The position numbers and the translations under genes were made by a program. 64,000 bases of DNA from a virus, in the IMG/VR virus record IMGVR_UViG_3300000228_000006, positions 1 to 64,000 of that record; one strand, 5' to 3'. Shown here one piece after another: positions 30,246-58,023 of the stretch (position 1 is its first letter; each line of letters begins with the position of its first letter). Under the pieces are notes generated by a model. It made no database searches. It worked only from the letters and a program-made list of their open reading frames with translations, and was not told the DNA's origin.

Positions 30246-30247
30246 TT
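30231..30247. repeat. 17-bp direct repeat at the start of the 1542-aa gene
   Basis: The plus-strand sequence ATATGTACATCCCATTT here is identical to 33598-33614. In both places it covers the start codon and encodes MGCTY on the minus strand. Confidence 0.8.
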
Positions 30248-33200: not shown

Positions 33201-33612
33201 TAGTATTATTTTCTTTACTTAAATGATTAATAGCAACTAATGTATTAGTTAATCTCTCTTGTTTTGTATGCATTATATCTAATGCTTTTAAAACATTCAA
33301 AGGAATTATACTATCTATAGCATTATTTTCTAATTCAGCTATTTTAGTATATAATGATTGAATTTCATTTTTAATTGAAGTTTTATTCACTATACCTAAT
33401 ACTCCAATATTCTTAAAATAATCTGGAGTTATTTCTACATTAACTTTATTCAAAATATTGCTTATCTGTTCTGATTTTACAGTATAATCTCGTCCTCATG
33501 CTTTTAAGGCGGTTTCGATTGAAGACATTGAGGCTTTAGATTCATCCTCAATATCGGTGGGGATTTTTAGTTCCCCACCATCTGGTAATTTAATAATATA
33601 TGTACATCCCAT
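30247..33612 (-). CDS. 1121-aa late protein with zincin-like metalloprotease motif
   Basis: One protein of 1121 residues after reading four TGA codons as Trp (30940, 32497, 33154 and one near 33490). Residues 977-981 are HEFLH in the context VDVLHEFLHVFLIN, the HExxH zinc site of zincin metalloproteases; a downstream Glu that would be the third ligand lies within NESREVYEDIL. The large remainder (MGCTYIIKLPDGGELKIP at the N-terminus, then beta-rich repeats) is unrecognised. It sits between the RNA polymerase and the 1542-aa protein. Zincin domains in this block have been reported for crAss-like phages and may process virion proteins; the role here is inferred. Confidence 0.8.
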
Positions 33613-33617: not shown

Positions 33618-36600
33618 TTATTTACATTTTATTGTTATTATTAACGCATTTTCTTTAATATATTTAATAATATTTTGTATATTAAGGTATCGTTGTTTGT
33701 CTACTGATATTGGATCTAAAGTAGTATTTACTACATAGTCTGTATTTATAATCCTTAAAAGCTTTTTAGCTCCTGTTAATGGATCTTTTACATATAATTG
33801 TCCACCTTTATGAAAAGTATAAAATACAATATCATTTTTCATAGCTTGCTCAGCTTGAGTTAGTGTTTTTATCTCTTCTTTTGTCTTAATTGGTTTATTT
33901 AATACTTCTTTATTATCATCTGTATAATCGAATAAATCAATTTCACCAGAGTCTATTTTACTAGAAAAATGTAAATAATTATTACCTACAGTATTTGGCT
34001 CTTTAATATAATCTTCAAAAATTGGTGTCAGTCTTAAATCTCCATATGATTCATTATTTACAACTAAATTATAAACATAAAATAAATCTCGTCAACTCAT
34101 ATCTACTCCCTGAACATTTTGTAATTTTTTCTTATTAAGGTCTAATTCATTAAATTCACTTAATAAATTTTGAAACTTATCTAAATTTACTGGATTATTT
34201 AATTGAGACATACTAAATGCAGAAACAATAGCACTCATTCTTGAGCCATAAGCAGTTCTTAAACTACGAATAGTTAATGATTCCATAAATTTAGGATTAT
34301 AGTCAGCTTTCTTTAAGATTGGAACAATTAACTCTTCCATTATTTTTTTAAAGTTTGCTATTCCGTGATCTGTATCTAAAGTTACTAATAAATTATTATC
34401 TCCTTTTACAGTAATAATCTCAACACTATCCTTACTAATTTTAGAATTAGCATTATATAATACGATTTCTTCTTCTCCTGCTAATTTTAATAATTCTTTC
34501 ACGTCAAAACTAATATTTGAAGGGGATGTTTTATCATTTGAGTCTTTGGATTGTGCTCATTTACCAACTAAAAACTTATCAAAAGCTAGTAAAGCCTTTG
34601 ATAAAGCTATATCATTAATTTTAAGAGGTAATGCCCTATTTCCCATTTGATGTTTTAAATTTTCATTTAAAGTTTGTAACTCATCCGTTTTTTCTCTAGC
34701 TATACTTCTAAGATAATCAAATGCAAAGTTATACTTTTTTGATAACTTATTTAGTATATTATGAGATATTTTTACTCCATCAATCATAGCTTTAAAATGT
34801 GGCACTGATTCAATTACATCAAATACATTAACTGTATCTTTTAACAGGTTATAATAATCTGCAGTAACTTTTCTGTAAGTGTCATTCTCATCCTTAATAT
34901 ATTCCCTAAAATCAAATTGACCTCCTAAAATTTTATATTTTACAGCATTATTTAATACTTCAATAATCTTAGATTCACTAACAGTTTTATTATTTTTTTT
35001 AATCAGTTTTATAAACTTTTTATCTGCTTCAGAGTTATTTCCAAAATCTCTTAAATAGATTAAATCATTTCCAAAAATTGCATGTTCTCTGGCAAACATA
35101 GTTGTTTCTAAATTGGTTAAAAACTTATTTAACTCTTTAATATTTGCAGATGTTTTTTGATTTACTTTTAAAAATCCAGATAACATTCTAAATTCTTGAG
35201 CTCCACTATACATAGATTTAAATGTAGCTAAGTCTGGACTAATACCATTAGCTTTTTCATAAGTTTGTAAAATCGTCGCTACAAACACACTATCATTTCC
35301 GTCAGACTCTAAAAATAAATTAGTTTCTAAACTTTTAGCTATATCTATCGCAACTTTGGAGTTCATAAATTTAGCAATGGTATTTTTATCAATACCAAGA
35401 GATAACATATATAAATGCATTGATGCTAATTCAACAGAGGCATTCAATTTAGCCATAGCTAATTCTTTTGCATTATCAGTTGCAAGTGATGTAAATCCGG
35501 ACATTGCAATAGCAGCTTGACTTTTAAATACATCTAACTTTTGCTCGCCTTTAGATATAAACTGTTCTAATTGAGTTATTTGATGTTTTCTAATTCTTAC
35601 ATCAGATAAAGTTGAAATATTATAACTCGTTTCTTCCATCACAAATTGCTTATTAAACAACTTATAATCATTGTCTACCACAGTATAATCTGGATCACTA
35701 TAATGGTTATTATAATATGAAGTTAATGCAAAATAAACTTTTAGGCCATTAGCTGCAATACCTACATCATCTTTACCAACAGAGGCATCTTTTTGTTGTT
35801 GCATTATGCTTATGTGGTCTAAACTTGATAATAAAAATTGAACTCCACCCTTTGCTTTTAATCCTTCACTTGCTGCATTTTGCCAATCTTCTACCTCTAC
35901 AGGTTCATTTGCAATTAAATAATTACTTGGAGCTGATATAATATTTTTAATTCTACTAATTACTGAATTATTTATTGCACTTTTCTTGTATAAATAATCT
36001 GTTGATAAATTATAATCATTAATTAATTTTATAAAATCTTTTGTAAATTTCGAATATAATGGATTATTTCCTAAATTTATATGTAATGATTGGGATTTAT
36101 TAATTTTTAATAGTATATCTCTTAATTTATTAATAGAATCTACTGAAAAATTTGAGTTAATTGTAAAATAAGGCACTTTTTCTCCTTTCAAATCTTGAAC
36201 TATACTACCTCAAACTTCTTCCATAGAATCTATAGTGTCATTATCTACACTATCAATAAATGCTTCAAATTCATCAGATAAATCTATACTATCAGCTATA
36301 CCAGCTGGAGTATATAAAGCTTTAGGAGTAATAATTTTCTGTCCTCTCGTCTTTCCTTTTGTAATTCTATTATTTGGAAATGGCAATGTTTCTATAGCAT
36401 TAAGTACTTCTTTTGAATTATAATTTAAAGGTGCTCACGAATCATATTGTCCATTTTTATCAAAGCCATATCCCATTATATATGCTTTATCAATATCAAA
36501 GTCAGAACCTTGCAACCAAAGTTGTCATGTTGATACATAAGCATCATTACCAGAAGCACTATTGTTATTATAGCCAACATTTCTCATTTCCATAAAAGAT

Positions 36601-39600
36601 TGCATAGATTGAGCTGGAATACGGGCAGCTACAAATTCATGTGATTTTTCCCAAGAAATTCTTTTATTTAATGCCATTTTATTAATTATATCATCCTTGA
36701 TTTTATTAAAGTCATCATGCAAAGTATCTTGTCTAAAATTAGATAAATCAATAGTAATACCACTAAATTTGGAAAATTCTTTTAATGTTATTTTATGAAT
36801 ACTAGAATCAATTAATCCCCTACCCAATAAATTACCTTCTTTATCAAATCTCTCAACATACTCTTTAAAAACACTATTCATTGTTGGAATAATAGCATCT
36901 ATTTTTCCATTAAATGATTTAATTAGTTGTTTAATCGTATCATTTAATCCTTCTTCTATTATATGATATTCTGTAACTACTTTACTTAAATGTTTAGATG
37001 CAGCTTTTATATATAAGGTTTCTTTCCCACTATCATCAACAATGACTTTAGAATTTTCTGGCAAAATATACATTTTATTACCTAATTCATCTAATCTAAT
37101 CTTTACAGTTTTTAATTCACCATCAATCTCTTCTCTGTCAGTTATAATAGAAACTTTACTATTAGATGAAGGTAAATCCACAACATATTTTACATATATT
37201 TTCGGGTTGTTATCTCCTAATGAAATGATGAAATCAGAATTATCATCAGTTAACTCAAATTGTTTTTGTAATTTATCTACAAAATAATTTGGGTTATTTC
37301 TAATAGTTGTAATTGAATCCATATTGGTTTCAAAATCACTTTTATAAATATTTGGCAGAATTAGTTCTGCTGGTTTAAATTTATAATTAGTTACATTAAT
37401 AGTTCTGCCATTGTATAAATGTTTTGCGTCTTCAAAAATATTCTTTATTAAGGCATCCCCATTAAAATAAGTTTTAAAATCTGTATTTATATCAACAGGT
37501 ATCATTATTAAATGATTATCTAATAGTTGAAGATTTCGTTGAGTTCATGCATTTAATAAATTATCTGCCTTTTTAAAAGCTTTTTGTGCTTCTTCATTTT
37601 TCTTATCTCGTACCTCTTCTATTAATTTCAAAGGAATCTTGTTTGCCTTCATAAAGTTACGTAGTATCAGATAATCACTATCAGTTTTATCGATAGATCC
37701 CTCTTTGAATTTATTTAAAATATATCTCAATCGAATAGAGTCAGTATCAAATATATTTTTAGCTTCATAGATTGATAAATTTGTTTCTTCATCTAATCCT
37801 GTTGTAATTTCAAAAGTAATTTCAGAAGGCTTTAAATCTCTTGGAACAGAGAATGATTTCATAACAGTTTGACCTGCAAACTCTTTTTTAAACTTATAAT
37901 ATTTTTCAATAGTATCAAGAGTATGTGTAGTTTTTAAATCTAATCCATCTACATTTAATACTATATCATAGCTATCACCAGGCTGTATTTCACTGGCATC
38001 TACAGGTTTAGATTGGTAAGTTTTTTCTAAATATTGTTTAATTATCTCTTCATTACTACTATTAGGGTTATACATAATAGTATTTAATTGATAATCTGCA
38101 AAAGCAGCTTTAGCTAAATCTTCTTGTTTAATAATATTTCCATTTGAATCTTCAAACAGTTTTATAATCCCATGAGAGGGGTTTAAGACTGCCCCAATTC
38201 CTCTGTAGTATCTTGTAATAAACTCATCATTCATTCTTGATATTACATCTTTAACAAATGCCTGAAAGAAATTTTGATTACTAAATGGCACTTGTAGATC
38301 TTTTGGCAATGATTCTAATATATTCTTAGCTAAACTAACATTATCTGATTTACTCATTTTATCAATGAATTTTCTAGCCATATAGTTATATAAATCATCA
38401 GTTTTATTCCCTAAATATTTTTTATAAGGAGCAGCAGCTTTTTTAATAGTACTAGCTAAATTTTCATAGACTTCTTGAGCTAAATGAGCAGTATTTCCAT
38501 TTTGAGCTAAAGCTGAGACTACCTGAGTTACTTCTTTAATCTCAGATGCATCTGCTTCATGTCCAGCATCTAGCTGTGGCCCCATATGTCTATTTTCATA
38601 AGTAGTAAACATTAATTTATCTTTAGATTTTCACAAATCATTAGAATTTATATTTGTACCACCTGCTTTAATGGATGACTTATTAGATATGATATGAATC
38701 ATTTGTTCTTTTAAATCATTATTAACAACTATATTAAATAATTCTTCATTAGAACCTTCATTGAATTCCCCATTAACACCCATTGAATATTCTCCACCTA
38801 ATGCTTCCCATACTTCATATAGAGTATTAGCTGGTTTAACAACTTTATTTAATAAGTCATTATTATAAATTATATAAATTTTATTGTCCTTAATAAGATA
38901 AGAAGTAATTTGTTTATTAATACCACTATCCATCACAAATAAATTGTCTGGAGTTAGTGGGGTAGTTTTAAGTCCATCTAAATTAAATGCACTAAACATT
39001 TGGTATTGTTTATTTTTATAGCTAATTTCTGAATGATTAGAGTTTCTAATAATATCATTAGTAACTACAGTTTCTGCATCTTTTTTAACAACACAAGAGT
39101 AATCTGTAATAAAAGTACCAAATTGTTTTTTAGTTCCTTTATAGCTTTTTCCTGGATATGAATTTTCAACTAACTTACTATATACATAATTGATAGTCGA
39201 ACTGCCATCATGTACTTCTTGATTGTTTTTAGTTTGTCCTGCAATATTATACATCTGAGCAGTTAAATCCTCAATTACTGCCAAATTAACATTATTCGGA
39301 GTACCATTTTTTTGATTTCTAGAAGGCAATTCAATTGTTGCAGTAAATATTACATTACGTTTAGCCATACTAGCTAATCTGCCACTCATTTCAATAGCTA
39401 AATCATCAAAATTTATAGAGGGCTTATCTCCTCTATAGTTTAATTTAGCTTTATGTGGATGCATATATTCTCCTTTTGCAGAAATATATAAGTATTCATT
39501 TTTAAATAAATTGCTCATCCACATCCATTTCTTTACTAATGGATTTAAATTTCCAAATTTATCCTGTATTTCTTGTTTTTCTCCTTGTGTATTAGTTAAA

Positions 39601-42392
39601 TTAAGGGTAGAATAGTATTCGTCAAGTTCCTTTGAGTTTAAATTTAATGAAGTTAAATTATTATTAGCATATAAATATTTAGCAATCATACTATCTTCTT
39701 GTAGTTTAATAAAAGTATTAAACTCTTTAGAAGGTTTTGAGCCTTTATATAAATTATAATTATCAACTATTAATTGATTTAATGCCAATCTTTTGTTACC
39801 ATTATCTAAATAAAAACTATAATGTAATTCTTCTGTAAAATTAGCTCCAGCAAAAACAGCCTGTGCTTTTTCTTGTTGAAATAAATTTTTACCATTAACA
39901 CCTACTTCATTTAAATAATTATTTATGAATAATATTTTTTTATTATTATCTTTTAATAAATTAAAGGCTTCTCCTCTTCCATTAGTATTGAATAAGATTT
40001 TATATTGTTTAAATATGTCCTCTAATGTATCTTCATAATAATTACGAGATTGCTCTCTAAATAATTCTATTAAATCTTCATTTGATAAATCTTTTATAAT
40101 CTTACCTTTCCATTCTGTAGAAGTGTTGATAAACTTAGTTAATATTGTAGACTTATCAGAATAATTGCCAATAGTTATAGCAAATGATTTATTTTCATTT
40201 CTTTTATCTTTAGAAAATGATTTAAGAAAATCAAATATAAATGTAGTATTAAAATTTTCAATTACATTAAATTTAGAAGCAGGCTTACTCTCAGTTATTC
40301 CATCACGTACTTCAAGTTTAGTTCCTGTACCTAATATAACAGATTCAGTAGGCAATTTGTCTATATCACTTCCAAAGAAAATTGATCTATGTAATTTATC
40401 TTTGTTCTTATTATAGTTTATATAATGGCTTTGTAATAATGAAGTGTCATTATACATTAAAGTAGCTGTTTTAAAAGTAGGAATTTTATCCCCTTTTAAT
40501 GTATCTACAGTCATAATAGTTTTAGTAATATAATTATCTACAAACTGTTTGATAGCCTCTATTAATAATGGATTACTTAATATTTCCCCTAATGCCTCAC
40601 TTGGTTCTACTGCCGCATCTGGTGTATCTCCACTTAAAATTTCTTCATTTTTTACAATTGCAGGTACAACATCAGTTTTTAATAAGTCAAATAATTTCTC
40701 TAAATCATTTTTTAAACTCTTAAGATTATATTTACCTTTATTTACTCCGCCTGACATATCCATGTTTAGAATAATATCATTAAAAGTTTGAGTATTAATA
40801 TTAAATCTAAATCTTTTATACATAAACTGTTTAAAGTTGTACTTAAATTCTCTTAATTCTCTACTATCTGCTACACTATATGTTCCATCAGGATTTTTTT
40901 CAAGTAACTTAGTATCTAAGTTAATATCTTTAAATAAAGTAGTTAATCCCTTTGATTTATCAAATCAACTATCAGCTTTATTTAAATTATTAGATAGGTT
41001 AGCATATATTCCATTTTGAGTTGCAATAGTACTAGCATTATGCTTATGCATTTCTTGTATTTCGTACTTCCCATTTGTATTATAAATTTGATAACTTGCC
41101 CCAAAAGTATTATTAACAATTTGCCCTAATATAGCTAATACTGAAAAATTTTCACTATTTTTTTCTTTTTCTATTATATTATTATTTTCTATAAAAGATT
41201 GTAAAGAATAAATTAATTCCATTTTAGAAGAAAATATACTATATGGCTTATGGGCTTCTTCTGTAAAATTACTAGCTTTTGCTTCAATAATTTTTGTAAG
41301 ATAATACAATAACATTCTTTTAGGATATTCTTCAAATCTAGTCCATTCACTATCTTGCAGATATGTATTTATATTCTTAGTCTCTAATTCTTTTATTAAT
41401 CCTCCTAAACTATACAAATCCTTCATTTCTAAAAATCCACCTGTAGCTACATTCTTTTTGTTAATTTGAGGAATTGTAGCAACAATAGCCTTTGTTAGTG
41501 AGTCTTCTAGTTTTTCAATTCCTTCAGATTCGTGATCTTCTTTAGATCAGTAAACTTCTTGATTTCCTTTAATATTTAAAGAATATTTAAAACTGTTTGT
41601 AGGAGAGTCATTAAATTTATTAAATACTGAATAGTCAATGTTAAGCACCTTTTTAAAGTACTTATTAATGATATTATCAAAATTTATTAACATAACTGCT
41701 GCATTATAAGCATCAAATTTATTTCTATCATCTACATTTAGAATACTTCCTCTCAAGTTTGGAATTGGCCTTCCATTATAAGATTCTCTTTTTTCATCTG
41801 CTGTAAATAATTGTGATTCTAAAGTACTAATAGCCACTTTAAATGTAGCATATGCATCACTATTAAAAGAGCCGTCACTATTATAAAGTTTTAATTTGTT
41901 GTTGGGCTGATTAACATAATTTAATAATGTTTGAAACAACTCTTCCTTTAAATTCTTTATATTATTATTTAAATCTTCTTTGTTATTAACATAGACTCCT
42001 GTTTTACTGTTACCTATAGCTACAGCTGTCATAACTAACCCTGTTACTTTGGATTTAAAATAGTTTTCTGCTACATTCATAGTGTGAAATAAATCAGTAA
42101 CCTCCGATGAAAGGAAGTTACTGTTTATTGCACTTTTAAAACCAGCAGTTGTTGTGCCTAAATTAGTTAGAAACTTACTAATATTTATTTTATAATAATC
42201 AAAAACATCTATTAAATCTTCTAAGTGGGCTTGATTATTTGTATTTTGAAGATAAGAAAAATAATCTTCTAAAGTAATTTCCATCTTTTCTTCAATAAAT
42301 CTAGATAATTTATCAATATCTTTAATTTGTTGAGCTTTACTATCTATTAAAGATATTACTTTTCTTACATTTATTAATTCACAATTTGCCAT
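33618..42392 (-). CDS. giant single-chain crAss-type DNA-dependent RNA polymerase
   Basis: One protein of 2924 residues after reading nine TGA codons as Trp (34092, 34557, 36210, 36435, 36525, 37545, 38631, 40965, 41547). Residues 1964-1968 are DFDID in LQGSDFDIDKAYIMGY, the metal-binding catalytic motif of the two-barrel RNA polymerase described for phage phi14:2 and crAss-like phages. About 700 residues earlier (from Met1270) lies MGPQLDAGHEADASEI, a conserved crAss polymerase segment in the region of the other barrel. It is some 700 residues longer than the phi14:2 enzyme (about 2180). In that phage the enzyme is packaged and transcribes early genes after injection; the promoters here that look host-like would then serve middle genes. 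Confidence 0.9.
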
Positions 42393-42416: not shown

Positions 42417-45400
42417 TTAACATGGGAAAATAGTCTCTAAATCATCATCATATATTGATTTATTCTCATCTCCTGTTAATGTTTGTATTAATACATTCAA
42501 TTTTGCATTTACTGTATCTATTGGTTTTTTAGCTTCTCTAACACTAGATAAATTTAAAGATGTATTAGCTAATGCTTGTACTATCCTGATTTTTATGCCA
42601 TCAACGCTATTTAAATCTATCTCAATATCTTCCTTAGATAAATTTAAAAAGTCTAATGCTATAAGTAATTCATTATATAATTTCTTATTAGTTGTTGAGT
42701 CTTTTAAATTTTCAAAGTAATTTAAAATATTAATTAATTCTTGGTAATCATTTTTATCTAGTCCTTCAAGTCATTTAGTTTGTAGTAGATTAAATGATAA
42801 ATTTGTTGGCTCTTCTGAAGTTATTGCCGTATTCTGTATTTCTTCTTCTACTTGTTCAATATTTGGAACTATTGTTTCTTTCTTAGTTTTTGAATTTACA
42901 GGGGGCTTTTCAGGATTAATTAACTCTTCTTTAAATTTGTTTTCTAAATTAATTATAATTCTTGGTGGTTCTGGAACTGCGTTAATAAAGGTTTTTTTAC
43001 TAATATTTATTCCATCACTGGTTTTTCTTACAGTATTATTATTATCAGTGTAAGATAAAATATTATAATATATTGGCCCTTGATTACCAATAAAAGCCAT
43101 AAGTTTATCTACTGTTTCTTGCATTTCTGCAATAATTGGTTTATATTCCTCCGATGGATTTTTATAGAATCTTAGGTTAAATAAATTTATAAAAGGCATT
43201 GCCCAAGTTCCATTAGTTTTAATTAATGGTAGAACTTTCTTTTTTAATTCTTTTGCATTTAATGTACTATTATCACTATAAGTTTTAGCTATAGTTTCTA
43301 ATGTAGTTTTAAAATTAATAAAAGAACTTCCTACTTTTTTAGTATCTCTACTTGTAAAAATATCTTCAATTAGACCTAAAATAGATGTTGGCAGTTTAAA
43401 GTTTACACTTGATTTATTAAATTCTCCTTTTTCAATATCAAATAATTTATCAAATAGACCTTTATCTTCAATAATTAATTTAGTAAGCCAATCTAATATC
43501 TGAGTTGGACTAGCTAATGCATTAAAGGCTTTTTTATCAAAGGACTTATTACCATCTGCATATATTTCTTTAGCCTCTTGTTTAACCTGTTCAATAGTCC
43601 TACTTTCTACAAACACTGGGATTAATTTAGTTTGTATATCTTTACCAACTCCTCCCTCAAAATCATTTTTATATGACAATTTTATATAGGGTTTTCCTGC
43701 ATATTTTTCATATAACTTCTTAATTTGTTCATCAGTTCTTGGTGTTCCATAATTAAATGAATTTATTAAAGATTTAAATGCCGCATAATTAGGTTCAGAT
43801 GGATAAAAGAATATAGTTGGTGTACCGCCCTCTGATTTAACTAACGTTCCTGGGAATGTATTAGTTATTTCAGTTAAGTATGTTTTACTATTAATATTTT
43901 TACCATTACTATCTTTGAATTTAACAAGTCTAGTATTAGTAATAAGTTTAACATCAGTAAAAGTCAGTGGTTTACCTATTTCTACTATATGTACATCAGC
44001 ATTTGTTTTAAAATATTTAGTTAGCTCTTTAATTTTGTCTGTATATGCTTCTCCTGTTTTTTCACCAAATTCAAAATTATCATTGCCGTTTTTAGAAATA
44101 TTAGCTAAAGTTAAGTAATGACTCTTACCATCATAGGTTATTTTTAATGATAGATTGATAAAAGGATCTGCATTTGTTAAAGTTTGCCCTATATTAAATC
44201 CAAATTTATCTCCTGGCTTATTAAATTCTTTATCATACATTGAAGCTGTTAATACATAGTCAACTTCTACTTCTCTAGACTTAATATTATCAATCCCTAA
44301 AGCTCGTTTAATAAATTCTTTATTATTTGCATCATTAAAAAGTGCTGTTTTATGGCTTTTTATGTTATTAAAAATTGCTAATGTTTTTAAATCACTTCAA
44401 GTTTTAAATAACTCTTCTGCATCTTCGCCCTTAATTCTAGTGTCTACACCATTTAATACTTTAAAATTTAAGTCAGTATTTGTTTTTGATCCTCCAAACT
44501 CAATAAAATCTACTTTATTTGTATCCACATTTCTTCTTACAACAGCATTTCAATTATTATAAAAGCTATGAAACATTATATCAAAATTATCTTCTATAAT
44601 AGTTTGCTTAGAGCCATCTGCATTTGTTTTTGTTGATGTAGGTTGTTTAAATTCATCCCCATTAATATCATCATTTCCATTTAATTCATTATTAGTTATG
44701 ATGAAATCTGTGTTATAATCTACCTTCTCACTTGTTATCGAGCCTTCTGTTGTATTTTCTTCATCAAGGTTAGTAATTGTATTAGAAAAAGTAAACCCCT
44801 TTGACATAGCCTTAAAATCATTATCAAGGAGTTCTTTAATAGTTTTAATTCTAGTATCTTTATTCTTGTTAATAACCTCTTCTGTTAATGGTTCACGTAT
44901 TTCAGTAAAATTATCTGATACATTTTCAATTTTTAATGACTTAGTAAAATTTAAACCAGAATCTACAATAATAGTACCATTTTTTGCTCTAGATATATAA
45001 GTATAAAATTCTTTTAATTTATGATTTGTTTTTTCAGATTTAATTAATGATGTATCAAATATAAAGTAGTCTGATTCATTACCTTGAATATTATTTAAAT
45101 TAAATATTTTCAGATTTGGATTTTCTAGGTTAATTCCAGCAGCTATTAAAGATTGTTTATAATCCTCAGATAAACCATTGTAGTCATCACTAGACTCTGT
45201 TAATATACCTACTTTTAAACCATTATCTAAATTTATTTTCATTACTTTTAATAAGTCTTGATTTAAATCAGGTACAATTATATCTCCATTTAAAACCCCA
45301 TTTTTAGTGTCTAAAAAGGAATGTAAAGTTGGTTTAATATTATCTAAAGTTAATAGTACATTCGATTCAGTATTATCAAAGTCTTCTGTATAAAATTTAG

Positions 45401-48400
45401 AAATAGTACTAATTAATCCAATCATGGAATCATTGTTATCTCTTTTTTGATTATTAGCAGAACGAACTGTAATATTTAGAGTTGGAGTAAATATTCCATT
45501 TGCTCTATTTGCATTATATTCTATAAAGCCATTAACATCAACTTTTTTACCAATTTGATTAGTATCTCCTGCTGTATGAATTTTCATAAAGCTACCCTTT
45601 TCTTTAGTAAGTCGTGATATTTCATTTAAGATAACTAACTCAACTGCAGAAAAGTGTGTTGTTTCATCTATTAATAGTAAATTAGGTAAATTTTCTAAAG
45701 AAACTTTATTTAATTCCTCAAAAATAAATGGCATACCATTATCAGATTCTTTTAATTTAACTGCTGGTAAGTTTTCATAATCAGTTCCTTGTTCTATATA
45801 CTTATTATTAGTATTAGTTAAAGATGCTTCTTCTTCTTTAATAGTTTCCATTAAAGCCCCTATACCTAATTTTTCATATAAAAGTTTTTTACTAAAGTTT
45901 TCAGTATTTAGTGTGGAAGTGTTAATTCCTTCTAAAACATCTGTCATTAATTTAGAACCCTGATCTTTATGAGGGCCAGCAAATCAAATGCTTAAATTTG
46001 GATTATCTGGCAATAATGCTTTTACAAGCATTTTAAATACAACAGTTGTTTTACCTGTACCACCACCTCCTAAAATAAATGTTATTAAATCTGTTTTTAA
46101 TAATTCCGTTTTAGTATTTTCATCCATATTCTCAGTTATCATCTGAAATAATTCTGGACTTACTGTAGAAGCCATCATTACTTTAGCTGCTAACTCTTGA
46201 GTATAAAATGGTGCTTTATTAAAGGCTATATCTTCTAATATATTTAAATCTTTAATAAAATGATCTCTAGAATTTATAGAAAAAATAGTTGCTAAATAAA
46301 TAGCTCTTTCATAATCAGTAATATCCTCAGATTTAAAATCTTTATTTATCACAGATTTATTATCAGTTATATTTAAAAATTCAAGTATTACCTTAAAAGC
46401 CTCTGCTTTATTGTCTTTATTTGCTTCATAAATTAATGTTTCAATTTTCATTAATTTTTTCTCATTAGAATCTTTTGAATTTAAAATTTCAGTTAAATCC
46501 GGTATAACAGGGTTACCTTTATACATAGGATTTTGCTTTATTAAACTCTTAATAGTCTCTAAATTGGTTTTAGTCATAATTTCTCTTACTGCTTCTTGTT
46601 CATTGAACATTTTAGAAGAATTACTTTTAGATATATTTAAAATAAATTCTAATTTATTAATGTATCTATCTAAGTCTTTATTCATTAAAGTGGCAGTATC
46701 TGAACTAATAGTTTTTAAACTTATAGTATCAGAGGTAATCTTATTTCTTTTAACAAAATTTTGTCTTGAAGCAATGAATCCAATAGGGTCTCCATAACTT
46801 AATTCAGTCGTACTCATAGAATTAACTACTGATTTTAACAATTTTAAAGTATTAATAGCTTGTTGTAAATCTCTATTTTTAATTCCTTCTGCTAAATAAT
46901 TTGATATAGACGAAGATGAAATTAAAGACTGTTCTTCTTGTTTTAATAATTGTAAAATAGTTGATGTTCTACTTTTTGAATTATCCTCTAAAGATAATTG
47001 AAATTCTTCTAAAAAATTGTATAATTCATTTTCAACTAAATCTAGCCCTTTAGCTTGTAATTCATATAATTTATTTAATTGTTTTAAATCACGTATAGAA
47101 TTTTTGTTATCTACTAAGTTTTTTATGGCTTTTTCTAATTGTTTATTAGTATCTTCATCTCCTAATAACTTGGTAAATTCTATAGGTAAGTTTAATTTTT
47201 CAATTGTTTCTTTTCTATAGTCTGTTCCAATAACATAAGTAATTTCATCCTCATTTTCTTCAGAAATTGCTGCTTGTTCTTTAAGAATTTGTTCAAATAA
47301 ATCTTTATCATCTTCTTCATAGTAAACATCTCCATTTTTTAAAGTTATTTTATTTATTTTATTTGTGTACTGATTTAATTGATTAGCTATTTTATCTGCA
47401 TTATTTAAAATAGATAACATATCTAATGGATTTGTAATGGTGAAATTTTTCAAATAAACATTATTTAATTCTAATAATCTATTATCCACCATTTTTTTAG
47501 CTTCCTTAAACATTTCCATGTCTGCTTTTCCAGGTTTACTTAAAGTATCTAAAAGTAATTCTAAAGCTATATTATTTATTTTTAAGAAATCTGGCTTATT
47601 TTTTGCAATAGCTGCATTTTTTTCTACTATTCAAACTTTATTTTTATAATCTAAGTATTCTCTATATTGAGAATAAATTGAATTTTCTGAATTGTAATTT
47701 TTATAAGTATTTAATTTAGATTGTATATCTTCTAAAAATACATCAAGGTTAGGAGTATCAGAATTTAAAATATCATTTCATTCATTACTTATTAAACTAT
47801 TTATTTCTTCTGTATTTCTTATACTTTCTAATTTAAATTCATCTGTTTTAGCCCTTGAATTCAAATCAGTTAATTCTTGTATTAAGGGTTTTAATAATTC
47901 TTGAATTTGAGCTGAAAGGCCTATTCCTGACTTATCTAAAAGTTTAGTAACATCAGTTTCTCCATTAATTATTTGGTCTAATAAATCATTGCTTAAGGTT
48001 GGGTTAGCTTTTTTAAAATTATCTAATAATCTATTACGTTTTTCAATTAAATAATTTTCAGCTATTTCATTTAAATCATAAAATTCTCCTGTAAACGGAT
48101 TATCAAAATAATTATTTAACTCATCTTGTTCAGAATTTAATTCCTTTGGAAGTTTACTTTCTAATAGTTGTTCAAACTTAAAGTTAATAGCTTTAATGTT
48201 ACTTAAATTAGATATATCACCTAATCCAAAAGTAATTTTAGATTTTTCTAAATTATCAATCTCTTCTTGTATTTCTGGAGTTATTTCTTCAGATTGAAGT
48301 AATTGAGTTATTTTTAAATTTACATTATTATTAAAAGCATTTACGCTATCATTAAAATGTTCTGCAAATTTTTCACCAGAAAAACTAGTTGGAGGTAATC

Positions 48401-51400
48401 CTTTACTTAAACTATCAATAATATAAGCAACTTTGCTTATCTTTTTTACTTCTCCTTCATCCTCAATTTCAATTTCTTCTTCTAATTGACTTTTACTCAA
48501 TGGCTTAAATTCTCCATCAATATAATTGCCAACTAAACCATTATTTATGAAATTAGAAGCTACGTCAGTTCTATATACATCTCAAGGTGCAAATTGTTTT
48601 TTAGTATACCCTTTTAGTTCATTACTAATTTGAATGTAACTTTCTATAGCTCTTGCTTTTTCCTCTTCTGTTCCTGCAGTATTAAAGATTTCTATTGTTC
48701 TTTTTAAATCTAAAGTTTTTTTATGAATCTCTTTTCTAACTGCATCATATCCAGTTTCCACTCATTTTGCAATTGCTGGATTAGTATTTTTCTCTAACTC
48801 TAAATAAGCCTTATATTTAGTTTCTAAATCAAATTTTATATCAGCATTATCTAAGTAACCTTGAAATTCTTTATTTATTCGCTCTTTACTTAATCCTAGC
48901 CCAGTTTCTGGCAGTTTATAATAATCAATATTGTATTTTGTTTTAGTGTATGTATTTTTATCGAGTGTTAATCAATCTTGGCTTAGTTGTTTTGATAAGT
49001 AAAAGGTAGCTTGTCCAAAATAATGTTCGGCATTTTTACCTTCTAATATATCATTTTTCTTTTGAATATATATTTTACGTTCATCCTCTAATAAAGTAAT
49101 AGTAGCTTTATTATTAACTTTAGCTTCTTCTGTTGTAGTTAAACTTTGTATTTTAGTAGTTAAATCTACTATCCTATCCAAACTTCTTGTATAATCTTCT
49201 AATATTAAACCTTCAATACCAACTGCATTATCTCCTTTCGCTTTTTCTAGTTCATTAATAACAATATGATCTAATAAAGCCTTTTTAACAATTTCTTCAT
49301 TAGTATGAGCTAACCCTTGAGAATTCATAATACCATCTATGGAATTAATCATCCCAATAGCTGTATCAGCAATAACATCTGCTTGAGATTTACCTTGCTC
49401 TGCTGCTACTGGATTTCCATCAACATCTACTGGAGATATATAAGAATTACCCAAACGTTTTCTTTGTCTATTAATTTCATTAATTGCTAAGTCTTTTTGA
49501 CCATTCCCAATTAATTGATATATTGATTGTTTTACTTCCTGAGGTATTTTTCCAGTTAATCTTGGCTCAATAACTGTTGAGTTAAATTCAAACATTGGAC
49601 CGCCAATCATACCGCCAACTAAATTAGCTACATAATTTTCTAGCCCAGATTTTGAGAATATAACATCTGTACCTCCAAAACTTCCCTGCTTTTCAGTAAA
49701 TCCTAAATAAGACATTGTATCTATTACGCCTTTAGTAGCATCCTGTACTAATTGCTCACTTACTTCTTCTACTCCTTCCACAACTGAATGTTTCCAAAGA
49801 TTTTCCCCCAAAACAGAAGGAGACATAAATGTATCCTCAATTGTATTTTTAAAATTTTTAAATATTCCTGCTAATTTAACCTTACCTTCAACCTTATTTG
49901 ATTCTGCAAATGCACTTTTAATAGGTTCAAAGTACCCTGAAATACTTTTTTTCATTAGGGCTTTATTAGTCTCAATAGAATATCCAGTTGATTTATCTAA
50001 AAATCAATCTCCCATCCTATTATTCATCATAACCCCATATTGACCAGCAGCTACTGCTAATGTAGCAAATCCAGCTGTACGTTTATCATAGCCTCCTTCA
50101 ATAGCTGCTCCATAGGTATCAGCAGATGTAGTTAATGCCATATACCCTAAATTTAAAGCTTTTGACATAGCAGACTGTTTTTTAAGAAATTCAGCCATTT
50201 CTGGTATTTTAGACATAGCTGATTGTTTTAACATCCCTATATCTTTCATATCTATCTTTCCACTAATAACTCCTTGTAATAATTCATTATCAATTCCTTT
50301 AGCAATCTTCTCTCCTTCGTCAGATAATTTTAAAGCTGAATTATTAGTAAATACTTTAGCTAAACTAGCTGCAGCTCTTTGTTCGTATATTTGAGAGAAT
50401 ACACTTGTAACCATTTGGCCCATTTGTTCATAATTAAACATTGAGCCCTGAGCCTCATCTGAAAAAGACTGTGCTTTAAATTTAGTCATGTAACCCTCTG
50501 CTGCAGTTGCAGCGTCAGTTAATCCGCTTTTATTTTCTCCTAGTAATAACCCTTCAAATGATTTATAAAATGTTGGTAAAACTGATGATAATCCAATAGC
50601 AGCACTTACTCTCCCATAATGAATATTAAATCCTGGTATTAAATATGGAGCTATTTGTGCAGCTAATTTAAATGTTGTTCCACTTATAGATTTCTCTCTA
50701 CTATCAGAATCCATAAAATCAAGCTTATTAAATATACTGCCATCAGTAGTTAATACATCTGTTGGGTTTAATACTTGTTTTCCATAAACTTCTCTATCTC
50801 CAAGTGTTTCCATAAAGAGATTACCACTTGCATCAGCTTTTCAATCCCCCTTTTTATGTTTAACTTGTACTCCATATTCTGGATCTAGATGTACTCCTTC
50901 TTCATCCCATTGTGCATAAACTAAAGTTTCCCCAAAAAAATTATTTAATAATCCCCTATCATTAGCAGAGTCTTTACTCCATTCTCCTGTTTTAGTATCA
51001 AATATTTTTCCAGATTGTGCTATTTCTCTTAAAGATAGTGGATTTGCATCAATACTTCCTACTCCTGTCCAACCTTTTAATGATTTAAATGGATCTATAT
51101 CTTGACTATATTCTACATCTACTTTATAAGTTTTTGCAAATTTTGGACGTGTAATATCAAAAGGACTATACTCAATAGTATCTAACCCTTTTAAATATTC
51201 TTCATTAGTGATTTCTGCATATTTAGTTGAGGCTACTGCATAAGCATCGTTAAATGCTAAATCATCAAACTTGCCATTTTCATCTTTAAACTTTTCTTGT
51301 ATAAAAGTAGATTGTTTATATTTATCTTTACTAAATAATGAAGTATTATTTCCATTTATATTTGAGCTAAGTAGGTCATATGAACTTGCAGTAGGGTTAT

Positions 51401-51443
51401 CCAATACTGCCACCATCATATCATTTGCTTTAGTTATTTCCAT
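42417..51443 (-). CDS. 3008-aa giant late protein with embedded SF1 helicase
   Basis: A single reading frame of 3008 residues after reading eleven TGA codons as Trp (among them 42771, 44550, 45984, 47778, 48972, 50004, 50841). Residues about 1780-2170 form an SF1 helicase: Walker A GGGGTGKTT (1792-1800), Walker B LLLIDETTHFS (Asp1926-Glu1927), motif III AGDTNQIGK, motif V NIQGNESDYFIFD and motif VI FYTYISRAKNG (from 2146). The N-terminal 700 residues contain Ala/Gly-rich and mildly hydrophobic stretches (AGFATLAVAAGQYGVMM); the middle is coiled-coil-like, Glu/Lys/Leu-rich. It starts two bases after the 625-aa gene and ends 25 bases before the polymerase gene, so it is probably a virion cargo protein. 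Confidence 0.85.
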
Positions 51444-51444
51444 A

Positions 51445-53322
51445 TTATTCTATTAATTTTTTTGCATTTGCACTTACTGGTTTATTTCCAGTCATATTTG
51501 GGTCTTCTTGTAAATTTCTTTGAATGTCTGCAATACCTGCAGCTGGCCCATATAAATGTGAGTTAATTGCAGCTATTTGTGCTGAAGCATCTGGTCTATA
51601 TGCTATATATGTCATTCCAGCTAGTGGTCTTTCTAATGATAAAGTTCCTTTTGGAATTACTTTTTTAATAATTGGTTTAGCTGTAGTTCCTGAAGTAAAT
51701 GTCCAGGCTTGTTCCATTAAATTTGTAGCTATATCTGCATTATCTCCAATTAATCTAACTAAATTTTTATTATCTGCAAATTCTGTAGCTGAGTTAGTTA
51801 ATGTAGGAATTGCTAAAAATGGTTTAACATATTTATTATCTCTAATAACTTTAGTAATTTTACCATCTTTGCCAGGGATAGCATCTATATAAATATTAAA
51901 ACCAGCGTCATGGAATCTTTTTTCTGCTACTTTAATGGACTCTTTATCTTTATTTGCTTCATAAACTGCCATTAAATCCTTAAATTCTTGCATACTTTCA
52001 AAATCAGGTAAACCTCCATCTTTAACTGGTAAAAGTACCTGTGCTACATCCTGTCCATTGTAGACTAAATTTTGTAATTGAATTGGATTAATTTTTATAT
52101 CCCCTAAATAGGCTTTATTAATATCTAATAAAATACCCAAACCACCTTGAGTTAAAGCATTAGCCACTGTAGAAACTCCAATTTGTTCATTATTTTTTAA
52201 ATTTAGCAATGGCCCAATAGACGAAGCATGAATTGACATTTTTGTTCCTTTATTATTATTAATGTCATAGTTATTGCCAGTTATGTTTAATTTACCTGAA
52301 TGGAATAATTCTGTAGGGGATAAAGCTATATTTTTAACTGCCTCTCCATTTTTTCCAGTTCTATTTCCATCAGTATCTTTAACTTCTGAAATACTTACAT
52401 CTGATTCTGGAGCATAACTTGCAGTTAATAATTCTTTAATAATGGTTTTTGAATCTTCTTTGCCTTCCATTATTGTTATGAGTTCTAATTTTCTTTGGGC
52501 AGACTCTCCTAATGTAGACCATATATAATTTAATGCAGTAGTTAAGTCTTTTTGTTTACTGCTAGATGTAATTTTATAAGAGCCATCAGCAGTTATACTA
52601 GATAATGCATCTAATTCTTTTTGAGTTGGCTTTCTACTTCCTGTAATTTTAGCTATTTCACTTGACATGTCCTTAGTTGCATAAAAATCTGTACTATCAG
52701 ATGCTAACTTAACCATTGATACAATAGATTGCACATGGTCACTAATTTTATTCATGCCAATAGAAGTGTTAGCTACTTCAAAAACTCCATTCTGTCCTGT
52801 TAATTGTGCTTCAAAATTCCTAGCATTTAAAAGTTCAGATACAGTTAATAATTTAACCTTACCTTTATTTTCTTTATAAGTATTTAAACTAATAGCTTGT
52901 ATTTGCCCATCTCCTCTACGAGTGTAAACCTCATTATTAGTACCAATTGCAGTTTCTCCATATCCACCTGTTTTTTCTGAAGTTGCAACAGCAGAATCCC
53001 AAGCTTTCTTATTTTCCATTAATTGATTTACTTTAGCAATTTGTTGTAAATAATTAATCATTGGCTTAGCCCCAAATGTATTTGAAGCTCCAAAATAATC
53101 TTGTTGTAATGTAGTCATTTTAGTAGCAAAATCATTTACGTCATTTACTAATCCAGCTCCCATTAATTTTTCATAAATTTTATCATTCATAACACCCTCT
53201 TCACCAGATTTCTCTGATGAAGATGCTTGTGTTGATGTTGATGTTGATTGTTGTGGTGCTGGATTAATATAAGGAGTAAAAGTTATTCCTCCACCTCCTG
53301 CCAATTTTAATGTATATTTCAT
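51445..53322 (-). CDS. 625-aa late virion protein candidate
   Basis: A 625-residue protein in one standard-code ORF: unusually for this module it contains no TGA; all its Trp codons are TGG. It begins MKYTLKLAGGGGITFTPY, followed by a Ser/Thr/Gln-rich stretch (residues 25-40), then a helical and mixed body without recognised motifs. The Gly-Gly-rich N-terminus resembles other late proteins here. Three bases separate it from the upstream 1565-aa gene and one from the 3008-aa gene. Position suggests a structural or cargo protein. Confidence 0.75.
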   Translation of the reverse strand: MKYTLKLAGGGGITFTPYINPAPQQSTSTSTQASSSEKSGEEGVMNDKIYEKLMGAGLVNDVNDFATKMTTLQQDYFGASNTFGAKPMINYLQQIAKVNQLMENKKAWDSAVATSEKTGGYGETAIGTNNEVYTRRGDGQIQAISLNTYKENKGKVKLLTVSELLNARNFEAQLTGQNGVFEVANTSIGMNKISDHVQSIVSMVKLASDSTDFYATKDMSSEIAKITGSRKPTQKELDALSSITADGSYKITSSSKQKDLTTALNYIWSTLGESAQRKLELITIMEGKEDSKTIIKELLTASYAPESDVSISEVKDTDGNRTGKNGEAVKNIALSPTELFHSGKLNITGNNYDINNNKGTKMSIHASSIGPLLNLKNNEQIGVSTVANALTQGGLGILLDINKAYLGDIKINPIQLQNLVYNGQDVAQVLLPVKDGGLPDFESMQEFKDLMAVYEANKDKESIKVAEKRFHDAGFNIYIDAIPGKDGKITKVIRDNKYVKPFLAIPTLTNSATEFADNKNLVRLIGDNADIATNLMEQAWTFTSGTTAKPIIKKVIPKGTLSLERPLAGMTYIAYRPDASAQIAAINSHLYGPAAGIADIQRNLQEDPNMTGNKPVSANAKKLIE

Positions 53323-53325
53323 ATT

Positions 53326-56300
53326 TTATTTAAATACTTTTATTAAAGAATCTTGCATTAATTTATGATTAGCTAAGATCGTTTTATATAATAATCTTAC
53401 TTCTTCAATACTTTTTTTATTTTCATTTTTAATATTCTCAATATCTATCTTATCTTGTTTAGATAAACTGCCTCCTTTTTTGTTATAAGTTGGTTGATTA
53501 TACATTAACTTCATTTTTACAATATTAAGTCTATCAGTTCAATCTTCTATACTTTTAGTATAGGCTGTTCTAGCATTTGTCAAATCGAGGTATCTTTGAG
53601 ATTGATTTCAAGGTTTCATTGTATTACTGCCTTGTACTTTTAAAGCCTCTGCATTATAGTCAGTTTCAGCTTTTGCAAATGCAGCATCATCATACAGTTT
53701 AGATTTATCTCTTAATGCTTTATATTCATCCCCAGTTTGCATTGCAATTAACTCAGAATAATCTTTTTCACGTTTTCTATTTGTAAGATTTTTTAAATAT
53801 GATAATCCAAGATCATTTTTAATTTGGTATCTTTGAGCTATCCTATTAGCTTCAATTAAATTAGCTTTATTTGCTCCTTCTTTAATAGATGCATTATTCC
53901 AATCAGCAATTGCAGTATTTCCAACAAGTGTTTTATAATCAGCATTAGCTTGTGCTTGAATACCTTTATTATATAATTCAGTTCCTCTCTCTCTATAACC
54001 TGCTGCAGCTTCTTCTCCTTTAGTAAACATTTGTAACTTTGCAGCCATTTGTTTATTTCCGTCAGAATAGGCATTTCCTGTGCTATTGCCAACTGTATTA
54101 GCCTCTGTTTTTACATTTTGAGCCATTCTATCATAAGGATTATACATAATAATCCTTTGATTAGGTTGCATAGTTTTAGTTGCTACATTAGTTACTGCTT
54201 GAATTTGTTTAGCAGCACTTTGATCAACAGCGTCTAATCCTTTTAAAGCTAAAGTAGTGTTAACTATATCTGTAGGGTCTATTTTAATTTTACCTCAATT
54301 TATAGGCTTAGATTCAGCTTTATATGCAGTTCCTGTTTTATCATTTACAATAATAGGAGTTTCTACTATTGGTTTTTCAGAAATAACAGCAGGAGTAGGA
54401 GTTGGTGCTTGTTCCGTTTTTACAGGTAAAGTTGCTTGGTATTTTTTCATTACAAAATTTTGTATTGGGCCAAAATAATTATCTGTAACAAGCCTGGTGA
54501 ATTTATTATAATCTTCTGGAGTTAATCGAACCGAGCTTTTAGTAGCAGTAATGTGCTTATTTAAGTCTGGCAAATACTCTAAAAATTGTTGTTGAGAAAT
54601 ATTATGTCTAAAAGTGTCCCACTCTGGTGTCTTTTGAAATTCGGTAGGTTTTCCATAAGGAATGTAATGCTTTAAATTCTTTGGAATTTTTGCATAATCC
54701 ACTAAAACTTCATTTCTAACAATTCCAGGATCAGCTGGGATTTGATGTTTTACAATTCCACCTTGTTGTCTTTTCAAAATTCTTTGTACCTCAGCTCTAT
54801 ATTGATTAAATTTTTCTTGTGTTTTAGCATAGGACTTTTGAGTTGATTCATTGTCTTTTGTTTTAAGCTTTATTTTAAGTTTATTAACTTTTGCACCTAA
54901 ATCCCTATTTTTAACTTTATTGTTCATTTTTTCCTGCAAAGCTTTAATTTCTTTCATTTTTGCAGCACGTTTTGCAACTTCTTCTGGGCTTCTAGTTACT
55001 TTTGGAATAGTTCCTTGATAATCATTAAGGTATTTTTTAGCTAATTCATAATCTCTAGTATCAATAGATCTATCACCATTTGGAGTTACTTTTGGGCCTT
55101 TACCTAAAATACGTAAATCACCTTTAACTTCATGAATAGCACTAACATTAGATAATTTTAAATCTTTTAAAGTTTTCATTTCAGCCTCTGTAATCTTACC
55201 CTCAGCTTTTAATGTAGCTATTAATTCATCTTTCAATTTATTATCAATCTCCTCATTTTTAAGAGCAATTTTTTCTTTATTTTGAAATGGAAGTTTATCT
55301 TTATTTAATCCTAATACTTTACTATCTTTTGGCCTTTCAATTGTTTTATCAACTGAAAATTCTTTATCACCTAATTTAAAAGTAGTTTCACCTTTAGTTT
55401 TAGTTCCAACAGTTGTTTGTCTTTTGATTGCTCTTATACCTTCAAAATCTTTATACCAAGTTTTACCAATACTACCTGCAATAGCCATAGCTTTAAAATC
55501 TTCTGGTCTAGTATATTCTATACCATCATTAGATATAGTTGAAACCACTCCTGGAGCAGCCATTAGTCCTGGAGTCATTCCAGCAATTCTTGCACTATTT
55601 CTTACAAATTTATTTTTTGTTAATTTAGTCAATAATTCTGATGAATTTGGTATACTTTTCCAAACAGCTTGTGTAGCAGCTCCTAAAGTAGTACTGCCAA
55701 GTAATGGAATTGAAGCATTTTGCACAACTTCTAAAGCCTCCATACCTTCCTTAATAACTTTATCAGCTAACACTTTTTTAGAAGCATCTAATTTAACTAC
55801 TTTTTTAAGTAATTCTTGCGTAGTTTTAGTGCCATGTATTTTATTTAAAGTTGCTATTTCTTGTAATGCAGTTTTTTCAGAGGAAGTTAACACTTTACCA
55901 AGCTTTTCAGATTTTGTTATTACTTTTGCAATATCAAACCCCTTGTCAACTGTTTTACCTAATTTAAGTAAAGTTTTAACTCCACCTAAACCAATTAGTG
56001 ATAATCCAATAAACCCGAAATTTAGTATATGTGTCCCTAAATCATCTACTTTACCATCTAATAAATCTTTAGTTAAATCTGCGCCTGTTGTTACAGTTGC
56101 TCCAATTGCACCAGCTACTGGAATAAATGAAGCCACTGTTCCCGCGGTTGACAATACATCTAACCCATTCTCTCTCCAATCTTGCCCCTTCCATGTACCT
56201 GTTATATCTTTTGCTCCTCTTGTTGTTTTTTCTGTTTTTTCTGTTGAGGCAGTTGTAGAGTTTAATTTATCTTGGTAGGCTTTAAAATCAATACCTTTTT

Positions 56301-58023
56301 GAGCTTTAATAATTCCTCCAACTTTATGTTTCATTATACTAGTTCCTCCTAAATGCTTATTATATGTATCCAAGGCTGCCATAATTCTTTTCTTTAACTT
56401 TTCATCATTTTTTACAACTGGGTCCTTACCTAAACTTCATTTTAAGGCTATTGCTTTGTCTGTTAAATGACTGCCAGTTTCTCCTTCTCCTTGATTTTCT
56501 AAGTTAGCTTTTTCAATAGCATTTAAGTCATCTGTATAATCATATACTTCTCCTGTTGTTTCCGCTTTTGGAATTTTATCAAACGCTACATCATAGTTTA
56601 TTGCCATATTAATTTCACTGCCATACCCTTTTAATGTAAATTCTTGGCCATTAACTGAATATTTTCCATTTACTGGACTTACATCAAATGTTTTTCCACC
56701 ATAAGTAACTTTTAATTGCTTAGAATAACTCCTTCTGCCTAAAATGTCTGTGTTGTACTTACCATCTTTATCATCTGACCACCCCACAACTTTATACCCT
56801 TGTGGTAAATCAGTTAAAATTTCTCTACCTACATTACCTCAAGTCTTTTCAGGATTTTCAGCTAATAATGCTTTATATTGATCAGATGTATTATTTTTTG
56901 TATAAATAAAGCCGTGATTAGGATCATTATACCAAGCTGTCCCATATTTAGGATCAAATTGATTTGATACATTAATACCTTGAAAATCATTCCCATTTTC
57001 ATCAATTACTCTACGTTTACCTGAAGTAGTATGAATTAATACTTTAGCTCCTTTATTACGAATTAAAGTATTAATATCTTCATTTTGAAATTTATAATTT
57101 GGATTATATTCATACCCAGCCTTAGCTAATTCTTGTGCTTTTTCTGGTGAAGTTATCTGTGTTAATCCAGTATATGCATTATTAAGTTTTATAGTTAAAT
57201 CTTCTGCTTTTTTAGTGTCTGCTTCTAATTTTAATTGTTCTGTAGTTTTAAGAAAATTTTCAGTACTAATCCCTAATTTATCAAAAATTCCTTGATAATC
57301 TGCTAATTTTGTAGCTCCAGTCGATGCTTTAGTATTGAAATCATTCAAAGATTGCACTGCTAAATTATATTCTTTTTCATCATATTTATCAACTCCTTTA
57401 TTAGCTTTATTAGTTTCATAATTAGTTTTATATGTTGTAAGTAAATTTTTTAAGTTATTTACATAGAATATATTTTTTTCTTCTTCTGTCATTCTATTAA
57501 TAGCTTCACTTGTAACTTTTACATCATTATTATATTGTGAAGTAAGAAAATCAGTGTATTTTGGCATAACTCTTTCATAGCCAGCAGGTGTAGTAGTTGG
57601 TGTAGTAGTTGGTGCAGTAGATATAATACCCCTTAAATCAGCCATTGCAGATGATAATCCCCTATCTTGTCTCTCTGCTTTATTCTGTTCTTTAGTTCCA
57701 AATAAACTACCATGTGTATATCCTTGTAATCCAAGGAATCCTTTATCTAAAGATACTCCTTGATGTCCGCTTCAATCTTGCGATTTTAAATTTTCTGGTA
57801 ATGCAGCCACATTAACAGTATATGTTCTATCTGGATTAAATTTAACAGCTTCCTCAAAATTTGGTAAATCTAATAAACTCTCGACTTGTTTATATTGATC
57901 ATGGGATTTACGTTGGTCTTTTGAAGATAGTGTGTAAAATTTATCTCATAATTGTTTTTTTAATTCAGTTTTATCAGGAGTTGGGGTTGTACCTCCTTGT
58001 TGTAATTTTTTTATTTGAGACAT
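53326..58023 (-). CDS. 1565-aa giant late protein with hydrophobic segments
   Basis: One protein of 1565 residues joined through about seven TGA-Trp codons (53608, 54295, 56437, 56839, 57946 and others). The N-terminus is MSQIKKLQQGGTTPTPDK. Around residues 625-690 are two hydrophobic stretches (FIPVAGAIGATVTTGA and ILNFGFIGLSLIGLGG) that could cross a membrane. Two inner Gly-Gly/Lys/Gln motifs (KVGGIIKAQKG, KRQQGGIVKHQ) recall those at the ends of other late proteins. No enzyme motif. It is probably an ejected cargo protein that helps DNA pass the envelope, by analogy with podovirus ejection proteins. Long antisense ORFs within it are shadows. Confidence 0.78.

Follow-up and report, generated by a model that had tools for sequence, protein, structure and literature searches.

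The window, a 64,000-nucleotide stretch of viral DNA (positions 1 to 64,000 of IMG/VR record IMGVR_UViG_3300000228_000006, a 75.9-kb virus fragment), almost certainly encodes a single 3008-residue late protein with an intact SF1B helicase in its middle. The protein stands directly before a virion-type RNA polymerase, at the head of a block of large proteins whose facing ends carry cysteines. The best explanation of the whole is that this protein would be packaged as the first link of a cysteine-linked polymerase cargo, and that its helicase would act on the incoming genome; we give this reading a probability of roughly 45%.

A continuous frame for a 3008-residue protein

42417..51443, minus strand: 3008-residue late cargo-type protein, read in code 4, candidate first link of the RNA polymerase cargo block

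Read with table 4, in which TGA encodes tryptophan, the gene runs from 51443 to 42417 through 3008 codons from ATG to TAA, and its tryptophan codons comprise 11 in-frame TGA and 6 TGG. Under the standard code, seven open reading frames (ORFs) of at least 80 residues appear in its place, and conventional gene calling conceals the protein, much as the sequence-only reading, which gave no strand, had said of standard-code gene models. At the base composition of the window, the chance of finding no TAA or TAG over 3008 codons is about 1e-103, and the other two minus-strand frames contain 307 and 354 code-4 stops. Among the genes checked, internal TGA is found in 0 of 11 early plus-strand genes versus 7 of 8 late genes, a confinement that fits the late-gene recoding published for crAss-like phages (PMC7886860). 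At the window's TGA positions, standard-code homologues have mostly aromatic or hydrophobic residues, and tryptophan accounts for 6 of the 45 commonest residues listed there, against a background of 0.8%. Reading TAG as glutamine on the plus strand was ruled out by its many stops. A tRNA gene search within the 64-kb window found none, and hence no TGA suppressor tRNA.

Relatives that use the standard code give the same answer. MT835470 (L002) has one uninterrupted 2967-residue ORF in the same place with similar neighbours (BLASTP E 1e-82 against the window protein), and L011, which like L012 uses the standard code, encodes a 2720-residue version. The table-4 reading and these uninterrupted ORFs bear out both the continuous 9-kb frame and the single giant late protein that had been proposed, and leave little doubt that the window gene makes one 3008-residue protein. 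Further relatives, found by an alignment-based search of viral contigs, read TGA as sense (L006, L008, L043, L044 and L046) or TAG as glutamine (L009, L010, L013, L014 and L045). Single-protein patterns found no viral-contig relatives of the giant protein, so that alignment queries were required, and single-sequence searches with it (P0001) gave no PHROGs or PDB match.

The opposite possibility, that separate shorter proteins are made, was named in advance; it fails in the standard-code relatives, which make one protein, and holds in one sub-clade. L005 (15202-24473) carries the gene as two pieces divided just ahead of the helicase half (1540 and 1555 residues), as does L014 (5196-14446; 1538 and 1549 residues), so that shorter proteins are made there and not in the window phage. 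An assembly error in L005 was ruled out by L014, which comes from a different sample and shows the split too.

An intact SF1B helicase

44844..46376, minus strand: SF1B helicase/translocase domain, residues 1690-2200 (homologue alignment, profiles, AlphaFold2, Foldseek)
46044..46070, minus strand: motif I (Walker A), GGGGTGKTT, residues 1792-1800
45663..45674, minus strand: motif II (Walker B), LIDE, residues 1924-1927, with D1926 and E1927 invariant
45555..45569, minus strand: motif III, GDTNQ, residues 1959-1963
45462..45464, minus strand: motif IV arginine, R1994, invariant
45069..45086, minus strand: motif V, QGNESD, residues 2120-2125
44982..44999, minus strand: motif VI, YISRAK, residues 2149-2154, with R2152 invariant

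Motifs I, II, III, IV, V and VI follow one another in order, with the catalytic lysine, aspartate-glutamate pair, glutamine, arginine and arginine in place. The sequence-only reading had listed five of them in this order, all of which were confirmed where it put them; R1994 is an addition. Across ten homologues with 19-38% identity to the window protein and three genetic codes, the invariant residues are G1792, G1795, G1797 and K1798 in motif I, D1926 and E1927 in motif II, G1959, D1960 and Q1963 in motif III, R1994 in motif IV, Q2120, G2121 and E2123 in motif V and R2152 in motif VI. The catalytic function of the helicase is under selection.

Against a PDB set, an eight-member profile matched Upf1 over both RecA halves (E 2e-12) and also matched RecD, while Pfam AAA_30 was matched by all eight members (E <= 0.1) and UvrD_C_2 by four. 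AlphaFold2 modeled the domain with a predicted local distance difference test score (pLDDT) of 78 and a predicted template modeling score (pTM) of 0.81, and the leading PDB folds in Foldseek were RecD, coronavirus nsp13, Dda, Upf1 and RecD2 (probability 1.00, E from 3e-9), which are of SF1B type rather than UvrD, PcrA or Rep. TM-scores to these folds lie at about 0.3-0.43, a modest level of the kind that two domains carrying inserts should give. Profiles, model and fold comparison thus agree on two RecA-like domains in SF1 topology. Neither a broken fold nor a missing catalytic residue, either of which would have counted against a helicase, was found in the ten-homologue alignment, the model or the Foldseek comparison, where RecD, Dda and RecD2 all matched with probability 1.00. 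We consider it nearly certain that residues from about 1690 to 2200 form an intact SF1B helicase, and membership of that subgroup suggests 5'-3' movement. Like RecD, RecD2, Dda, Pif1, nsp13 and Upf1, the domain has a pair of RecA-like halves and the full set of catalytic motifs; unlike these SF1B helicases, it is embedded in a 3008-residue virion-type protein, and its identity to solved structures is about 9-15%.

The probable polymerase cargo block

61087..63945, minus strand, running past the window to about 65226: crassvirus muzzle protein (Pfam crAss_MUZ, 1e-22)
53326..58023, minus strand: 1565-residue protein in the cargo-1 (crAss001 gp45) position, no cysteine, weak gp45 match
51445..53322, minus strand: 625-residue protein in the cargo-2 (crAss001 gp46) position, no cysteine
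49524..51443, minus strand: residues 1-640 of the giant protein, its best conserved region, with long helices, a glycine-rich EGxEE...GGxxGG pattern and a weak colinear gp47 match
33618..42392, minus strand: 2924-residue virion-type RNA polymerase, DFDID at residues 1964-1968, cysteines 4 and 2923
30247..33612, minus strand: 1121-residue third link, terminal cysteines 3 and 1120
25617..30245, minus strand: 1542-residue last link with a PD-(D/E)XK nuclease domain (Pfam 1.9e-8), cysteine 3, no C-terminal cysteine

The late genes run in the order muzzle, cargo 1 (C1), cargo 2 (C2), giant protein and RNA polymerase with a DxDxD motif, matching crAss001 gp44 to gp50, and the giant gene occupies the gp47 position between two cargo-type genes and the polymerase. 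The polymerase gene begins 24 bp downstream and has its motif, GSDFDIDKAY, at residue 1964, in keeping with the location that had been claimed for the giant gene. By its muzzle, gene order and relatives, this gut phage is crAss-like and of Zeta-group type. Zeta genomes measure 145-192 kb and their sister lineages use TAG, TGA or standard code (PMC7886860), a description that the window's relatives (166-180 kb, three codes) fit. A paper on the Zeta phage Lera mentions a TGA-disrupted helicase ORF, possibly but not necessarily the giant gene (PMC12386605).

Mass spectrometry has detected gp45, gp46, gp47, gp49 and gp50 in crAss001 virions (PMC10172136), and gp076 to gp082 of phi14:2, annotated from virion tandem mass spectrometry, have the same gene order. 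By this analogy, the 3008-residue protein is very likely to be virion cargo. crAss001 gp47, phi14:2 gp078 and p-crAssphage gp45 are alike in size class, in their position after C1/C2 and before the polymerase, and in being nearly cysteine-free with a C-terminal cysteine, as the giant protein is; unlike it, they have no SF1 domain, and p-crAssphage gp45 is annotated as a zincin protease fusion. To gp47 there is a weak N-terminal profile match (hhalign E 3.5e-4, score 42, probability 37%, about 80 colinear residues), for which the reversed control scored 22 and 59 of 60 column shuffles at most 24, with one short outlier at 137. No homology to gp46 was detected for the protein in the cargo-2 position, and the predicted fold of residues 1-640 (pLDDT 70) had no PDB match below E 0.28.

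Cysteines at the junctions of the block

42420..42422, minus strand: C3008, the sole cysteine and final residue of the giant protein

At the cysteine rate of early genes (1.3%), the probability of finding at most one cysteine in 3008 residues is 2e-16. The three successor proteins start with MANC, MGC and MGC; the RNA polymerase ends in KCK and the 1121-residue protein in NCN, while the last protein has no such cysteine at its C-end. We wrote down a rule, a cysteine near the C-end of the upstream protein and near the N-end of the downstream protein, before making a systematic table of 18 genomes (10 Zeta, 2 Steigviridae, 2 Intestiviridae, 2 Suoliviridae, 1 Crevaviridae and 1 epsilon). At 43 of 43 junctions the upstream protein had a cysteine within its last 9 residues and the downstream protein one within its first 7. 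At the outer ends, 0 of 18 chain starts have an N-terminal cysteine and 1 of 18 chain ends (epsilon) a C-terminal one, the last-link C-ends of L005 and L009/L027 being out of sight past the fetched stretch. Four loci fetched after the table add 5 of 5 junctions and the Suoliviridae phage cr118_1 adds one, for 49 of 49 junctions of consecutive block proteins in 23 crAss-like genomes, counts that are not independent because of phylogeny. These blocks lie in the window (25617-51443) and in L002, L004-L006, L008-L010, L012-L015, L023-L034, L036-L038, L043-L046 and L053. Among control proteins of at least 300 residues from the same genomes, 18 of 175 have a C-end cysteine and 4 of 175 an N-end one, and cysteine content is 0.17% in the block versus 0.96% in controls. 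The rule is, with very high probability, a real feature.

Extra breaks in the chain are informative despite the shared phylogeny. The split giant proteins of L005 and L014 have new cysteines on both sides of the extra junction, and the extra break of the split polymerase in L010 also carries a new pair. Polymerase breaks at the DxDxD site (L002, L027 and L030) have no cysteine pair.

The annotated start of crAss002_33 (L024 7243-7339) appears to be 32 codons too early, and an in-frame MSC start fits the rule. For unannotated genomes the start was taken as the first methionine of the frame, which could matter in a few cases. In crAssE-Sib (L039 9086-15488), for which the rule predicted one more link, an ORF in the next large gene region starts with MTSTC and is followed by a frame break and a 1897-residue frame of a large structural protein. 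The break may be an intron, a frameshift or a sequence error; the region is at most suggestive of a third epsilon link and was excluded from the counts.

What the cysteines do can be read in two ways. They could be packaging or retention tags of each protein, or make non-covalent contacts, with no covalent chain. Their tag-like position, within 9 residues of the C-end or 7 of the N-end, speaks for this, and a near-cysteine-free remainder is expected of any protein that crosses the oxidizing periplasm unfolded; yet both sides of all inner junctions carry a cysteine when the outer ends, with one exception, do not, and the gain of a pair at new breaks is left unexplained, making tags rather unlikely. 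Facing-end cysteines, their absence from outer ends and their near-absence elsewhere are better explained by head-to-tail linkage than by a tag on each protein. In crAss001, virion proteins do form disulfides with one another (PMC10172136). A literature search on cysteine or disulfide linkage of crAss cargo, with the phi14:2 polymerase paper outside its scope, found nothing relevant. From the sequences, covalent linkage of the cargo proteins is plausible, at somewhat less than even odds.

Helicase distribution across Crassvirales

A profile built on the Zeta proteins found the helicase domain in every Zeta-type record. It had no convincing match in crAss001, phi14:2, cr111, cr128 or the epsilon phage crAssE-Sib, and none in the first-link or RNA polymerase proteins of p-crAssphage, crAss002, cr55, cr127 and ProJPt-Bp1. 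The idea that the helicase is exclusive to Zeta phages was narrowed after a RecD-like fusion was found in cr118_1, whose gp14 (L053 16381-31221, 4946 residues, named exonuclease V) carries an SF1 domain at its C-terminal end (AAA_30 1.7e-25). This, too, is a first-link polymerase cargo protein with a near-C-terminal cysteine; it differs in that the helicase follows the polymerase motif within one chain and escapes the Zeta profile. The comparison suggests separate recruitment to the same cargo, with deep common descent as the alternative, and a DNA motor has apparently been recruited to polymerase cargo more than once.

The best viral folds for the domain are two deposited metagenomic proteins, A0A8S5RTY8 ('RecD-like protein', Siphoviridae sp. 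gcode 4; TMq 0.71) and A0A8S5TKT5 ('helicase', Podoviridae sp. ctz6O13; TMq 0.65), both about 20% identical to it. Sequence databases thus apparently already contain auto-named homologues; for these two we found database names only and no published description of the arrangement.

Proposed mechanism and alternatives

From knowledge of the family we infer that a Zeta-type crAss-like phage packages the 3008-residue protein inside its capsid, where it leads the polymerase cargo as first link, and injects it. Terminal cysteines would couple the C-end of each link to the N-end of the next, C3008 with C4 of the RNA polymerase and onward, most simply through disulfides that the host cytoplasm would reduce. 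The chain would be injected N-terminus first and largely unfolded, with the RNA polymerase and two more proteins following the giant protein; such an N-first exit has been proposed for crAss001 gp45 (PMC10172136). After entry the giant protein would refold, and its SF1B domain would use ATP to translocate 5'-3' along single-stranded DNA of the entering genome. Its most likely task would be to offer the virion RNA polymerase a single-stranded or cleared template. We tentatively favor this template-access role on two grounds: the virion RNA polymerase of N4 shows no activity on native DNA and has a preference for single strands (PMC4496689), and cr118_1 provides a second SF1 fusion within this cargo. 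Extended across Crassvirales, the polymerase cargo could be one covalent string, joined by disulfides, passed N-first through the tail and released by cytoplasmic reduction, with an SF1B motor on the leading link in Zeta phages; we hold this as a conjecture that may well be wrong. The summed chain here would have 3008 + 2924 + 1121 + 1542 = 8595 residues.

Several points weigh against this explanation. Packaging is proposed by analogy with other crAss-like phages, and sequence homology to gp47 appears weak. The terminal cysteines could act non-covalently or as packaging tags, and disulfides may be slow to form in the anaerobic gut. The helicase cannot be generally needed for polymerase function, because most crAss-like groups tested lack the domain, and early helicases in the genome could open the template later.

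21000..22361, plus strand: stand-alone early 453-residue SF1 (Pif1/Dda-like) helicase, outside the cargo (AAA_30 4e-21, PIF1 6e-10)

The window encodes DnaB and an SF2 helicase as well as this early SF1 enzyme, so that the domain of the giant protein is an additional helicase. Its RecD/Dda-like fold would suit a packaged second replication helicase that starts replication or recombination by processing DNA before early expression, a role made very improbable by the genome's own early SF1, DnaB and SF2 genes.

The main rivals to template access are an ejection motor and protection of the incoming DNA. The sequence-only reading had suggested that the protein might pull DNA into the cell or open promoters for the polymerase. 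As an ejection motor, the helicase would enter first, perhaps with the N-terminal region keeping it at the envelope, and reel in DNA using ATP. The giant protein is the first link of the block and its N-terminal region is helical and glycine-rich. Active internalization of DNA by polymerases has precedents in other phages, and a review of N4 cites unpublished work on internalization by polymerase. SF1B enzymes, however, move on single strands while the incoming genome is duplex, any membrane anchor is putative and other crAss-like phages eject their DNA without this domain, so this role is decidedly unlikely.

If it instead shielded the newly entering genome from host nucleases, restriction or recombination, the protein would be a polyvalent-type cargo enzyme like P1 DarB. 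Polyvalent proteins are late-gene, virion-delivered and multidomain, and DarB, an SF2 helicase-methylase, acts in antirestriction (PMC5512222); the last link here has a PD-(D/E)XK nuclease. The giant protein resembles polyvalent proteins as a late-gene giant with a nucleic-acid enzyme, but it lacks their several effector domains (MPTase, ART, MTase-SF2, ParB, PBECR, LPD). In Pfam, SF1 is the sole domain recognizable in its 3008 residues, which showed no methyltransferase, ART, metallopeptidase or any further conflict domain, and that helicase is SF1, not SF2. We regard a protective role as unlikely.

Polyvalent proteins, DarB and the N4 virion polymerase are likewise giant late proteins delivered with the DNA and equipped with nucleic-acid enzymes, and the literature already describes giant proteins that carry helicase domains and are delivered by virions (PMC5512222). 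Together with the auto-named deposited homologues, this corrects the earlier statement that no described function was known for the arrangement. Unlike crAss cargo, these systems have no tandem chain, and the N4 RNA polymerase is a single-subunit, T7-like enzyme.

Implications and further observations

Partial unfolding of the cargo has been proposed to let megadaltons of folded enzyme pass a channel less than 50 angstroms wide (PMC10172136). The two-sided cysteine rule at every junction offers a concrete, testable hypothesis for how, and in what order, the cargo is delivered: such phages may, if it is true, inject giant enzymes as one reversibly linked chain. The helicase shows that a DNA motor can be part of the polymerase cargo in gut viruses that rank among the most abundant.

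The RNA polymerase ORF is broken at or near WLQGSD|FDIDKAY in several relatives (L002 31957-33018, L027 8121-11075, L030 7981-9189, L028 and L044 19215), and some of these breaks hold a small endonuclease-like ORF. The breaks at the catalytic motif are probably self-splicing introns and may account for Zeta polymerase genes published as 'disrupted'. A LAGLIDADG-type endonuclease gene lies in the early region of the window, where the early SF1 helicase gene adjoins genes for ribonucleotide reductase, dUTPase and ligase, and a GIY-YIG-like ORF stands beside the capsid gene (window 10038-11108; L003 13015-14112).

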